From: Sulfuricurvum sp.
GTDB lineage: Bacteria > Campylobacterota > Campylobacteria > Campylobacterales > Sulfurimonadaceae
DNA length: 64,000 nt
Direction: 5' to 3'
Assembly (NCBI GenBank): GCA_020721585.1
Contig: DYMK01000008.1
Span: 1-64,000 of the forward strand
Under the pieces are notes generated by a model that saw nothing but the letters and a program-made list of their open reading frames with translations, was not told the origin of the DNA and did no database searches. Below, in pieces: positions 807-6,024 of this stretch (positions are counted from its first letter, which is position 1; each line of letters starts with the position of its first letter). Made by a program: the position numbers and the translations under genes.

Positions 807-1574
807 ATGAAAAAGTATAACCGTGTTTTAACGCACCATAATGACCTTTTAGCCTGTTTTACAACCCGTTTGGAGGGTGTATCACCCCCCCCTTATCGTG
901 GGTTTAATGTAGCGTTTCATGTGGGGGATAATCCTGATCATGTACGCACCAATCACCAAACCCTTGCAACCTTACTTCACTATGATCGTGCCAAACTGGT
1001 CTATATGAACCAAATTCACTCCGACCATGTCCATATTCTCACCGATGAAGACGATTTTGATCATCCCCCGACCTGCGATGCCCTCATTACCCATCGTCGG
1101 GAGACCCCCTTGATGGTGATGAGTGCCGATTGTATCCCGATCCTCGTGTATGACCCCACCCATGAGGTCATTGCGGCGATTCATGCGGGGCGTGCGGGGG
1201 CATTGTCAGCCATTGTCCCCAAAACCCTACAAACGATGAAAGAGGTGTATGGAAGCCATCTCCACGAACTCCATATCGCCATTGGTCCCTCCATCCAAGG
1301 GTGTTGCTATGAGGTCAATGCCACCATTGCCCATGAAGTAAAAAGCTTAGGGTACGGGACAGCGTTACGCTACGAGGAAGAGAAAATTTTTTTGGATGTC
1401 TATACGATCGTTCAGCAACAGCTCATGACCCTTGGGGTGCTTCATATCGATGTGACACAGTACCACTGCAGTGCGTGCCATCACGATGAGTATTTTTCTT
1501 ATCGTGCCGACCACCAGCGCACAGGGAGGATGGGAGGGGTGATTAGCCTTCAATCCTCTGTGCCAACTGCGTAG
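807..1574 (+). CDS. pgeF: peptidoglycan editing factor PgeF (purine nucleoside phosphorylase/laccase-domain family)
   Basis: 255-residue member of the YfiH/DUF152 family. The metal and active-site signatures are present: MSADCIPIL near residue 109 with the conserved Cys, HAGRAGAL near residue 128 with the conserved His, GPSIQGCCYEV near residue 158, and the C-terminal CSACHHDEYFSYR...TGRMGG block. Family members act on nucleosides and remove aberrant peptidoglycan stem peptides. In many Campylobacterota the tryptophan of HAGWRG is replaced as here. The 3' end overlaps the convergent dxs gene by 32 bases. Length is normal, so the overlap is unlikely to be a start or stop error. Confidence 0.9.
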   Translation: MKKYNRVLTHHNDLLACFTTRLEGVSPPPYRGFNVAFHVGDNPDHVRTNHQTLATLLHYDRAKLVYMNQIHSDHVHILTDEDDFDHPPTCDALITHRRETPLMVMSADCIPILVYDPTHEVIAAIHAGRAGALSAIVPKTLQTMKEVYGSHLHELHIAIGPSIQGCCYEVNATIAHEVKSLGYGTALRYEEEKIFLDVYTIVQQQLMTLGVLHIDVTQYHCSACHHDEYFSYRADHQRTGRMGGVISLQSSVPTA

Positions 1575-3363
1575 GTAACAGCCCAAGCGAGGCTTCGACC
1601 AAGGTCGTATTACCATGGGTGATAAATTCATCGTCATATTCAAACGTTTTGAGGGTGATGCGTTGCAGTAATCCCGCCCCATTGAGCCACTCCAACAAAG
1701 CACTTCCCACCCCCCCTTGAGCCGAAGAGTCACTAAAGACGTACCATTGGGTATAACGCTTCGCTAAATGGGTGAGCATCACGGTATCAAGCGGTTTGAC
1801 AAACCGAAGATCCAGCAATGCGGGTTTTTCTCCCGTGAGATGGGTCATGGTTTGTACCGCCCGCCCCACTCCATTGCCATATCCGATGAAGAGTTTTTCC
1901 CCTTCTCCTTCGTGAATGAGTTGGGAACGACCCAACACAAACGGAGCAAGACTTAAGGGTTCTTCGAGCATAAACGCCCCACGAGGATACCGAATGGCAC
2001 AGGGGGCATCATGCTCCACCACAAACGCCATTGCCGCATGAAAGGAGACCTCATCGCACGGCGCGCACAGGGTCATGTTGGGGATCAGACGTAAAAAACT
2101 CACATCAAATGCCCCTTGGTGGGTCTCTCCATCTTCCCCGACAATCCCCGCGCGATCGATGGCAAAGACCACAGGAAGATTCATGAGACACACATCGTGA
2201 ATCACTTGGTCAAATCCCCGTTGCAAAAAGGTGGAGTAAATCGTACAAAAAGGTTTGAATCCCTCTTTTGCCAACGCTGCCATGGAGGTAACGGCGTGTT
2301 GTTCAGCAATGGCAACATCCCAAAAACGGTCGGGATATTTATCCATCAAGGCACTTAACCCCGTTCCACTGGGCATCGCTGCGGTCACCCCTACGATTTT
2401 TGGATTGATAGAGGCGTGGTGCATCAACGACTCAGAGTAGATTTGGGTGGCACTTTTGAGGGAACTTTTGCTATTTGCCATCCCACTTTTAAGGTCAAAG
2501 GGGGCAACGCCATGCCATTTTTCGTGTTTCCCCTCGGCGATTTCGTACCCTTTGCCTTTGAGCGTTTGAACGTGAATGAGGACGGGTTTTCCCATCCCTT
2601 TGGCGGTGGTGAGAATATCAATCAACGATTTAAGGTCATGACCATCCACCGGACCTATGTACTCAATCCCCATCTCTTCAAATAAAATTCCGGGGGTAAT
2701 AAGCTTTAAGGACTCTTCAAGCCGTTTGGCTAAATAACGCGCCCCTTCTCCGAAATTATCGACAAACGCTTCGGTTCTTTTTTTGAACCGTTGGTAAAAA
2801 GGGCTTGCCATAGCGGAACTGAGAATACGGCTAATGGCTCCAATGGGTTTGGCAATACTCATCTCATTATCATTGAGGATAATGACCATGGGGTATTTAC
2901 GATCCCCCAATTCATTTAACGCCTCATAGACCATCCCTGCTGACATCGAACCATCCCCGATTAGGACAACGGGGAGTCGATGACCTTGTTCCCCTTTGAG
3001 AGCGATGGCTTTGGCTGCCCCCACCCCCAAGGAAATGGACGTAGAACTATGCCCCGCCACAAAATAATCACTGGGCGATTCCGAGGGTTTGGTGTAGCCA
3101 CTTAACCCCTCAAATCGGCGCAACGTCGTAAACGCTTCCCAACGACCACTGAGCAATTTATGGGCATACGCCTGATGGGAAACATCAAAGATAAAAGGGT
3201 CTTGCGTCGCATCAAACACGGCGTGCATCGCCACAATAATCTCCGTCGCCCCCAACGTAGAGCTTAAATGCCCCCCATTGGTACTGACTACCTCCAAAAT
3301 TCGATCCCGAATCTTTTGCGAAAGGGCGTTTAACTCCTCAATGGTATAACTTTTAATATCCAT
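1543..3363 (-). CDS. dxs: 1-deoxy-D-xylulose-5-phosphate synthase
   Basis: 606-residue thiamine-diphosphate enzyme condensing pyruvate and glyceraldehyde-3-phosphate, the entry step of the non-mevalonate isoprenoid pathway. Visible are GGHLSSTLGA near residue 30, the ThDP/Mg motif GDGSMSAGMVYEALNELG starting at residue 136 with its Asn downstream, the transketolase pyrimidine-domain segment with IAEQHAVT, and DRAGIVGEDGETHQGAFD. The length is typical. It follows the fliF-like gene by 10 bases and is the last gene of the minus-strand block. In C. jejuni dxs follows fliF-fliG-fliH; here only a fliF-like gene precedes it. Confidence 0.97.
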   Translation of the reverse strand: MDIKSYTIEELNALSQKIRDRILEVVSTNGGHLSSTLGATEIIVAMHAVFDATQDPFIFDVSHQAYAHKLLSGRWEAFTTLRRFEGLSGYTKPSESPSDYFVAGHSSTSISLGVGAAKAIALKGEQGHRLPVVLIGDGSMSAGMVYEALNELGDRKYPMVIILNDNEMSIAKPIGAISRILSSAMASPFYQRFKKRTEAFVDNFGEGARYLAKRLEESLKLITPGILFEEMGIEYIGPVDGHDLKSLIDILTTAKGMGKPVLIHVQTLKGKGYEIAEGKHEKWHGVAPFDLKSGMANSKSSLKSATQIYSESLMHHASINPKIVGVTAAMPSGTGLSALMDKYPDRFWDVAIAEQHAVTSMAALAKEGFKPFCTIYSTFLQRGFDQVIHDVCLMNLPVVFAIDRAGIVGEDGETHQGAFDVSFLRLIPNMTLCAPCDEVSFHAAMAFVVEHDAPCAIRYPRGAFMLEEPLSLAPFVLGRSQLIHEGEGEKLFIGYGNGVGRAVQTMTHLTGEKPALLDLRFVKPLDTVMLTHLAKRYTQWYVFSDSSAQGGVGSALLEWLNGAGLLQRITLKTFEYDDEFITHGNTTLVEASLGLLPTQLAQRIEG

Positions 3364-3373
3364 AATACCCTCA

Positions 3374-4921
3374 TTAACACAATTTCAATACCGCCTCAAC
3401 CACAAACGATTGAGCCGCTTCTACCTCTTTGATACTGACCGCTTCCAAACACCCAAAAGCGTCCATAAATGCTTTTTTTTCAGTGGGAGACATCACCCCA
3501 TAAAACGCCTCTTTAAGCTCGGGTGAAGAGCTTTTAAGGGCAATCATCACCACGCGATGCTCAAGGGTCAAAAGGATTTTTTGGATCACCTCTTTTTCCA
3601 AATTGACCATCTCTTCAAACAAAAACCCCTCTTTGAACAACGTGACCGTAGGGGTAATCTCCTCGATCAGCTCCTCTTCTTCCCGTGTGTGGGTCAGCGA
3701 TAAGCGTTCATCACTAAAGGGGATAACCCATTTCACGTACATCCAAAGTAGCACCAAAAGCAGCAAGGTATATTGGATAAAGGAGACCATCTTCGCATCC
3801 CGTTTGGTTAACAAATCTCCGGTCGTATCGTTGACCTGAAACGGAAAACTTCCAATCACGACCCGATCGCCACGTGCGGTATTGATCCCCATGGAACGTG
3901 CCACCAAATCATGCACAACGTTGTACGCATCGCCTTCCAATCCCACATACACCCGTTTGCTCGATGAGAGGTTGTATGCACCATCGATGACCACATTGAC
4001 ATGAATCCCTGTAATCTCGGCATATTCTTGTAAAGGAGTTGTTGCCGTGGATAAGGGGGTGATGGGGGAACCATCGCGCCCAAAAAATTCATAATTGAGT
4101 ATCACATGGGCAGTCAAATGCTCTCTTCCCCCTACTAAGGGGGCTAGGAGGGTGATGAGTTTCTCCTCGCGTAACCGCTCCTCTTTGGTCTTATACCGTT
4201 GTTGCGCCAACGACAAACTTCCCTCGATGGCAACGGCATCCCCCTCATCCATCGCTAATCCTTGGGTATCCATCACAAAAACCCGCTCACGGGTGAGTTG
4301 AGGAACGGCAAAAGCGACCAAATCTTTGATCCCTTTGATGGCATCGGTCGTTATTCCCTTTTGTGTCCCATCGATGGAAAGCACCACCAACGCAGAGGGG
4401 AGATGCTGTGCATCCATGAGGGGGGGAATCGTTAACGTTACGGTCGATTTTTGGACAAAAGAGAGGGTATCAATGGAGGAAGCCAACTCTTTTTCGAGGG
4501 TTTTATAAAACGTCAACCCCTCCCCAAAATGGGTTGATTCAAACGTTTGACGATCCAAAAGGGCAAAACCGATGTGATTGGTGTGCAAAAGCCCCAACGA
4601 GGCAATGGTCATACGCAAGGGGTAAAGACGTGTAACGGGTACTTCTAAAATCTCGGTATCTTTTTCGACACGGTAGGGGATATGTTCTTTGTGGAGATAC
4701 CCCTTGACCCGCGCGCTTTGATGGGGGGATAAATACGTAAACAAGCGTTGATACTGCGGTTCGTTGCGGTGGGGAATACTCCAAATCAGCACTACCAAAA
4801 GCGTCCAAAAAACAAGCACCCCAACAACGAATGCCCCCTTAATCAAAGAAGGGTTGTGCAACGATCCTTTGACCCCATCACCCCACTGACGTAAAACGGT
4901 TTTGATGTGCATGGGGTTCAA
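3374..4921 (-). CDS. fliF: FliF-like MS-ring protein fused to a FliG C-terminal-like domain
   Basis: 515-residue two-pass membrane protein. Residues about 29-49 form TM1 and 380-400 form TM2. Between them lies a FliF/YscJ ring region: FTYLSPHQSARVKGYL, IASLGLLHTNHIGFALLD, KTLEKELASSIDTL and the GRDRVVIGSF-like stretch near 350 match the family pattern. After TM2 the usual FliF tail is replaced by residues about 433-514, which read like the FliG C-terminal torque domain (FEEMVNLEKEVIQKIL, IALKSSSPELKEAF, VMSPTEKKAF, EVEAAQSFVVEAVLKL). FliG N and middle domains are absent. Aligned by eye to E. coli FliG, K264 and D288 are kept but R281, D289 and R297 are Thr, Ala and Ser. It sits between hisC and dxs, the flagellar fliF position in C. 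jejuni. A rotary role is doubtful; a non-motile scaffold or decaying relic are alternatives. Confidence 0.8.
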   Translation of the reverse strand: MNPMHIKTVLRQWGDGVKGSLHNPSLIKGAFVVGVLVFWTLLVVLIWSIPHRNEPQYQRLFTYLSPHQSARVKGYLHKEHIPYRVEKDTEILEVPVTRLYPLRMTIASLGLLHTNHIGFALLDRQTFESTHFGEGLTFYKTLEKELASSIDTLSFVQKSTVTLTIPPLMDAQHLPSALVVLSIDGTQKGITTDAIKGIKDLVAFAVPQLTRERVFVMDTQGLAMDEGDAVAIEGSLSLAQQRYKTKEERLREEKLITLLAPLVGGREHLTAHVILNYEFFGRDGSPITPLSTATTPLQEYAEITGIHVNVVIDGAYNLSSSKRVYVGLEGDAYNVVHDLVARSMGINTARGDRVVIGSFPFQVNDTTGDLLTKRDAKMVSFIQYTLLLLVLLWMYVKWVIPFSDERLSLTHTREEEELIEEITPTVTLFKEGFLFEEMVNLEKEVIQKILLTLEHRVVMIALKSSSPELKEAFYGVMSPTEKKAFMDAFGCLEAVSIKEVEAAQSFVVEAVLKLC

Positions 4922-4929
4922 TGGCTCTG

Positions 4930-6024
4930 CTAAACCAGCGGATCAATCAGCTGAAAAAAACGATCATTTTGGATCGAGGTTCCCACCGTTACCCGAATCG
5001 CATTGAGACCATAACTGCTTAAGTTACGGACGATCATCCCCTGCTCCAATAACGCTTGGGCAAGGACACCGCTGTTATGACGCTCAGGGAGTGCAAGGGT
5101 CACAAAATTGGTGTAACTCTCAATCAACGTAATCTGTTTAGCCTGCGCAAACGCTTCATACCGTTTCATCTGCTCAAAATTATCGGCAATGCACCCTTGG
5201 ACAAAATCTTCATCCTCCAATGCCACTGAAGCCGCTTCAAGCGACAAGGTGGTGATATTAAAGGGGGGGCGGATTTTGTACAACGCGTGGATAATGGGTG
5301 CTTGAGCAATCCCATACCCCACACGCATCCCCCCTAATCCATACGCTTTAGAAAACGTCCCCAAAAAGAGGACATTGCTAAAGCGTTTAATCAACGTTTT
5401 GGGATCAATGGCTTTGGAAGGGTCTTTAAATCGGGCATATTCCATGTACGCACCATCGACAATCACCAACGTATCGACATCAATTTTTTCAATAAACGCT
5501 ACCATAGCATCCGCATCAATGGCATCCCCTGTGGGATTATTGGGGGTACACAAGAAAATAATAGCGGGTTTATGCTCACAATAGAGGGCATAAAACTCTT
5601 CCAAATTATGCTCACGTGAGGCAGTGCGGATAATCTGCGCCCCCACGTGTTTGGCATAAATTTCGTACATTGCAAAGGTAACACTGTTCATCAACACCTT
5701 TGCCCCATGATGGGCTTTGGCATGGATGGCAAACTCAATGACTTGATCACTCCCCGCGCCAATCACTACTTCATTTGGGGCAATGGCATATTTATTCGCA
5801 AGGGAATTTTTGAGTTTTGTCATCGAATCATCCGGATACAACGCCATGGCATCAATCATGGAAACGACGGCAGCTTTGACTTTGGGGGAACACCCAAACG
5901 GATTTTCATTACTAGCCAGTTTAACAATCGATTCTTTTTCAATCCCATACTCACGTACCACCAATTCAATGGGTTTGCCCGCTTCATAACTTTGGATTGA
6001 TTCTAACGTAGGGTTAAATTTCAT
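4930..6024 (-). CDS. hisC: histidinol-phosphate aminotransferase
   Basis: 364-residue PLP-dependent class I/II aminotransferase that converts imidazole acetol-phosphate and glutamate to histidinol-phosphate in histidine synthesis. Seen are LASNENPFG near residue 37, [11 protein letters not shown] near 157, VDGAYMEY near 189 and the PLP-lysine segment [17 protein letters not shown] with Lys226. The start overlaps the stop of pheA by four bases (ATGA-type coupling). Some HisC enzymes also transaminate aromatic keto acids, which would fit its place directly after pheA, but that is inference. Confidence 0.95.

Follow-up and report, generated by a model that had tools for sequence, protein, structure and literature searches.

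The window analyzed here, a stretch of 64,000 nucleotides from a Sulfuricurvum sp. contig, carries on its reverse strand a gene in which a FliF-like protein runs on into the C-terminal domain of FliG. The gene, its parts and its neighbors are as follows.

3374..4912 (-), fliF::fliG(C) fusion, encoding 512 aa when started at ATG 4912 and 515 aa when the open frame is read from TTG 4921
4778..4852 (-), first membrane-spanning helix of FliF, modeled at residues 24-48 (515-aa numbering) and aligned to FliF TM1
4259..4765 (-), FliF RBM1-RBM2, YscJ_FliF, residues 53-221
4025..4081 (-), where the beta-collar is missing; 19 residues, compared with 80 in the flagellated relative G029 and 12 in G267
3839..4030 (-), what is left of FliF RBM3, residues 298-361, matching YscJ_FliF_C over profile positions 92-147 only
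3722..3820 (-), second membrane-spanning helix of FliF, within predicted helix 368-430, from alignment and structure model
3632..3685 (-), fusion junction, at about residues 413-430
3380..3634 (-), C-terminal domain of FliG, residues 430-514, from its MFxF-like motif onward
4930..6024 (-), hisC, upstream neighbor, the same in flagellated relatives
1543..3363 (-), dxs, downstream neighbor; in relatives fliG and fliH intervene

Profile searches against Pfam identified one intact protein encoded at 3374-4912(-), with a FliF part followed by FliG_C. YscJ_FliF matches residues 53-221 (1.1e-34), YscJ_FliF_C matches residues 298-361 with the last third of its profile (3.1e-6), and FliG_C (PF01706) matches residues 430-514 with an E value of 2.8e-14 and 53.7 bits against a cut-off of 23.3. 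With NCBIfam models the protein scores above the FliF cut-off (TIGR00206, 152.8 bits versus 129.75) and far below the FliG cut-off (TIGR00207, 46 bits versus 226.7), the latter model being matched over positions 234-320 only. FliG_C crystal structures match residues 432-513, Salmonella MS-ring FliF is a Foldseek match of the FliF part, and in a single-chain structure prediction of the full protein the FliG(C) part is folded at a pLDDT of about 90. An earlier sequence-only reading of this DNA had proposed such a fusion, a FliG_C search at residues 430-515 as a check on it, and the absence of the FliG N and M domains; all of this is borne out, PF01706 being the only FliG match of the protein in Pfam. 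An ordinary FliF tail was considered for the C-terminal 85 residues and rejected, since they match FliG_C and not that tail. The same reading placed the gene at 3374-4921. The single open frame is confirmed; because the FliF of relatives begins at a Met aligned with the ATG at 4912, this ATG, and not the TTG at 4921, is most likely the start.

The beta-collar of RBM3 is absent from the fusion, with PF08345 (YscJ_FliF_C) unmatched below position 92, a loss that the sequence-only reading had not noted. Also absent is the FliG-binding C-terminal tail of FliF, since FliF similarity stops at about residue 491 of the approximately 570 in relatives. FliG(C) is not the part of FliG known to bind FliF. 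On E. coli FliG numbering, the torque residues of the fusion read K264=K, R281=T, D288=D, D289=A and R297=S, in agreement with the proposal that three of the five charges (R281, D289 and R297) are replaced.

In G029, a flagellated genome of the same genus, the locus reads hisC, fliF (573 aa), fliG (341 aa), fliH (258 aa), dxs. The flanks are identical in order here, where the locus is hisC-[fliF::fliGc]-dxs, with 17 bases before the ATG, 10 bases from the stop to dxs and no fliH between the fusion and dxs. The fusion tracks the FliF of relatives to about residue 491, just beyond the second membrane span, and then follows FliG from about residue 229. Because relatives have the order hisC-fliF-fliG-fliH-dxs, the gene arose from a neighboring fliF-fliG pair, and the parsimonious origin is an in-frame deletion of the FliF tail and FliG domains N and M, with fliH also lost. 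Ordinary Campylobacterota FliF and FliG, such as those of G029, are like the fusion in chromosomal place, domains and genus in the tree. They differ in being two proteins, a FliF with collar and tail and a FliG with domains N and M, accompanied by a fliH, at 38% identity. In the tree the FliF part of the fusion is placed among its own genus (support 82/95) on a very long branch, and a horizontal origin is therefore not supported. An assembly artefact was also rejected, as the gene is internal to a contig of 71 kb, follows the family gene order and has just about 38% identity to any normal copy.

The fusion is known from one genome only. Each of the other 40 genomes in the genus yields a match, none of them a fusion; complete FliF matches among them are open frames of 568-581 aa. 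No second fusion of the FliF::FliG(C) kind is among the matches listed for the 228 genomes of the family, and no such fusion is among the best matches listed for the 399 genomes of the order; these negatives rest on the matches listed, near the top of which a full-length homologue would rank. This is the phylogenetic survey that the sequence-only reading had recommended.

FliG_C is found in other settings as well. G029 has a second full-length FliG, an orphan at L068:9431-10456(+), far from its fliF-fliG-fliH locus, and a second FliG_C match is also present in G016, G020 and others. In G004 the extra FliG_C matches were considered as fusions of the same kind and rejected, as they are esterase-FliG_C proteins: on contigs 5 and 6 (L062:8939-10417(-) and L063:8708-9748(+)) an esterase-like N-terminal part is joined to a FliG_C-like stretch, in one of the two with an extra C-terminal domain that is HD-type by eye. 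G004 also has normal FliF and FliG, and its esterase proteins put FliG_C outside a flagellar context.

The host genome, which is 99.9% complete, is non-flagellated and without chemotaxis by every gene tested. What it contains, and in what order, agrees with Campylobacterota, probably the Sulfurimonas/Sulfuricurvum group. Nowhere in it did we find a match to FlhA or any FHIPEP (FlhA/SctV) protein, to FliMN_C (FliN/SctQ) as expected of FliM, FliN or FliY, to the Flg_bb_rod proteins of rod and hook, to FlgG or to CheW-domain proteins. MotA was not found either; only ExbB/TolQ-type channels remain, three proteins of the usual kinds that flagellated relatives have too. For FlhG, the genome has just matches of about 29-32% to other ParA-type proteins, kinds which also occur in flagellated G029 alongside its FlhG. 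The survey thus covered FlhA, Flg_bb_rod, FliM/N/Y, MotA, FlhG, FlgG and CheW-domain proteins, which are all present in the flagellated comparison genomes of the genus. As to fliG, the fusion holds the sole FliG_C match in the whole genome, which completes the set of genes (fliG, fliM, fliN, motA and flhA) that the earlier reading had suggested surveying.

One further flagellar gene is retained, at a separate locus. Relatives have the cluster aroQ-folK-flhF-flhG-x-fliA-fliM-fliY-LOG-mnmA, and the host has aroQ-folK-flhF-LOG-mnmA; flhG, fliA, fliM and fliY are cleanly gone beside the retained flhF. The match of this protein to TIGR03499 is 165 bits, just under the cut-off of 174, and its identity as FlhF was assigned by synteny and motifs. 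The P-loop, DTYR, DTMG and TKLDE GTPase motifs are all intact, and identity to FlhF of flagellated relatives is 84% over the first 51 residues, 25% in the linker and 64% in the GTPase part. The host thus has both FlhF and the MS-ring protein FliF, the pair associated with division control in C. jejuni.

The fusion has 512 codons without a stop, for which the chance is about 2e-12 at its base composition, and its GC by codon position resembles that of its neighbors. Divergence from G029 is highest at third codon positions (0.69), followed by first (0.52) and second positions (0.39). The FliF part is 38.6% identical to that of G029 as compared to 82% for FliF within the genus, while next to it hisC, pheA and dxs share 78-82% identity with G029 (57-82% in the wider neighborhood); judged by these identities, constraint on the fusion is therefore weaker than, or different from, that on normal FliF. 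From this one genome, function appears more likely than decay. A torque role for FliG(C) seems unlikely because there is no MotA and because of R281T, D289A and R297S.

A parallel case was found in G267, the complete genome of a non-flagellated relative from another genus of the family (L127:8340-11067(+) and L151:6752-12546(+)). Its FliF (454 aa) is also collarless, its FliG (342 aa) is otherwise complete, and a 110-aa remnant lies at the fliH position. The second cluster in G267 reads aroQ-folK-flhG-fliM-fliY-LOG-mnmA, with flhF and fliA gone, and no match to FlhA, MotA, FlgG, FlhF or CheW-domain proteins was found in this genome. The G267 FliF falls within its own genus in the tree, as the fusion does, and because of these placements the tree indicates that the FliF collar is lost twice independently. 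Three more genomes were observed with isolated components: G230, of a third genus mostly without FliF, has an FlhG-like ATPase (L152:9203-10024(+)) and no FliF match; G041, of another family, has an FlhF-like GTPase (L153:9386-10453(+)) and no FliF match; and G577, from a genus otherwise without FliF, has a weak match of FliF/FliG type (4.4e-20), possibly another reduced ring.

A FliF-FliG fusion as such is already known, since a natural one has been reported in Chlamydiaceae (Bergeron 2016, PMC4768692). There too a truncated FliF runs into a piece of FliG behind its second membrane span, and the organisms likewise have no flagella (PMC4768692). However, Chlamydiaceae FliF has just part of the SctJ region and no SpoIIIAG-like domain, whereas the present protein retains RBM1, RBM2 and a portion of RBM3, and the chlamydial fusion carries the FliG M domain in place of domain C. 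Chlamydiaceae also have FlhA and an injectisome, and the host here has neither. Engineered FliF-FliG fusions from Salmonella and Vibrio share the direct joining of the two proteins, and the Vibrio one forms rings (PMC11481574); these are laboratory constructs keeping far more of FliG, and with the Salmonella one the motor still rotates (PMC7355467). Within the open-access literature, the FliF::FliG(C) arrangement appears to be new, as do its clear derivation from two adjacent genes, the persistence of FlhF beside it in the genome and the parallel collarless ring of G267.

Work on polar flagella suggests how such a protein might be placed. In Vibrio cholerae FliF is brought to the pole by FlhF (PMC7226244). 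Rings of Vibrio FliF form upon co-expression with FlhF or with FliG, or upon fusion to FliG, and FlhF binds the FliF N-terminus (PMC11481574); by itself, H. pylori FliF stays monomeric in vitro (PMC8786727). The S-ring, made of RBM3 and the collar, is the FliF contact site for the rod proteins FliE and FlgB (PMC11481574). In C. jejuni, minicells are produced by flhF, flhG, fliF, fliM and fliN mutants and not by rpoN or rod mutants, with little effect of export mutants (PMC3228812); a later study added fliG and fliY to this set, and fliH and fliI do not belong to it (PMC6946799). The host resembles this FlhF/FlhG-MS ring-C ring division-site system (PMC3228812, PMC6946799) in keeping FlhF and FliF, and differs from it in missing FlhG, FliM, FliN and FliY. 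G267 keeps a nearly full division set with FlhG, FliM and FliY, but FlhF is absent.

Since an intact, fast-evolving fusion and FlhF persist after loss of the flagellum and chemotaxis, our findings suggest that the ring has been retained for a purpose unrelated to swimming. A lineage that lost the rest would then have preserved the initial, membrane-anchored stage in the building of a polar flagellum. The GTPase FlhF may take the fusion to the pole, where it could assemble into a putative MS ring lacking collar, rod, export gate, C ring and stators, with FliG(C) serving as a cytoplasmic docking face and not as a torque element. Such a ring could act as a pole marker or scaffold that keeps division away from the poles or sets pole identity, the role that FlhF and the MS ring have in Campylobacter jejuni; that FlhF and the ring are kept, and FlhG and the C ring are not, leads us to infer a landmark of this kind. 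We give a polar collarless ring placed by FlhF, most likely with a role in division or pole identity, an about even chance of being correct, and division control is the leading but unproven candidate for its task. Several observations stand against it. FlhG, the route from ring to division in C. jejuni, is absent together with FliM, FliN and FliY, and the C. jejuni mechanism therefore cannot operate here in its known form. Identity to relatives is just 23% over the FliF N-terminus and TM1, the part reported to bind FlhF in Vibrio, and the very long tree branch also fits relaxed constraint.

Relaxed constraint is what one would expect of a slowly decaying relic, whose place between hisC and dxs shields it from polar breaks and whose frame stays open by drift with no present function. 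The operon shared with these two genes, the lost torque charges and the very fast divergence of the FliF part, next to flanking genes that mostly retain about 70-82% identity, would all fit such decay. Decay fits less well with the open codons, the neighbor-like GC and the conservation of position 2, with an intact FlhF conserved domain by domain at a separate locus, with the clean removal of the remaining flagellar genes from both loci, or with the parallel collarless ring in G267, and we consider a relic rather unlikely. The sequence-only reading had left the choice between a relic in a non-flagellated lineage and a re-used ring; the lineage is indeed non-flagellated, and the intact frame, the patterned conservation of FlhF and the ring of G267 favor re-use without proving it.

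A polar scaffold still placed by FlhF and dedicated to another task, such as pili, envelope growth or chromosome anchoring, shares all evidence for the pole marker and has the advantage that the FlhG and C ring required for the known division role are missing. No candidate partner gene was found for it, however, and the lack of CheW-domain proteins rules out chemotaxis arrays as its clients, so that we regard it as unlikely. It is also conceivable that FliG(C), the stator-facing domain, takes the three ExbB/TolQ-type proton channels that remain as its partners instead of MotA, in a re-used rotor or energised ring. This is very improbable in a genome with no MotA, with three of five torque charges lost and with channels that are the usual ones of flagellated relatives too. 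There is also a precedent for reading the fusion as the base of a non-flagellar type III secretion system, a role proposed for the FliF-FliG fusion of Chlamydia, which has been discussed together with the chlamydial injectisome (PMC4768692), yet this reading is already contradicted by the genome-wide lack of FHIPEP and FliMN_C matches and is hardly credible here.

Returning to the pole marker, it may be one instance of something wider. Tentatively, and with somewhat less than even expectation, we propose that flagellum loss in Campylobacterota repeatedly leaves a working collarless MS ring with FlhF or FlhG as a free-standing pole organizer, of which FliF::FliG(C) would be the most reduced form. 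The fusion and FlhF would represent a natural experiment separating the MS ring from swimming, and if both are still under selection, the role of the polar flagellar base in division or pole identity could be tested without motility defects. It would also mean that, in the dismantling of a large machine, the earliest-assembled, pole-placing step was the last to go, and that this happened twice with different partners kept.
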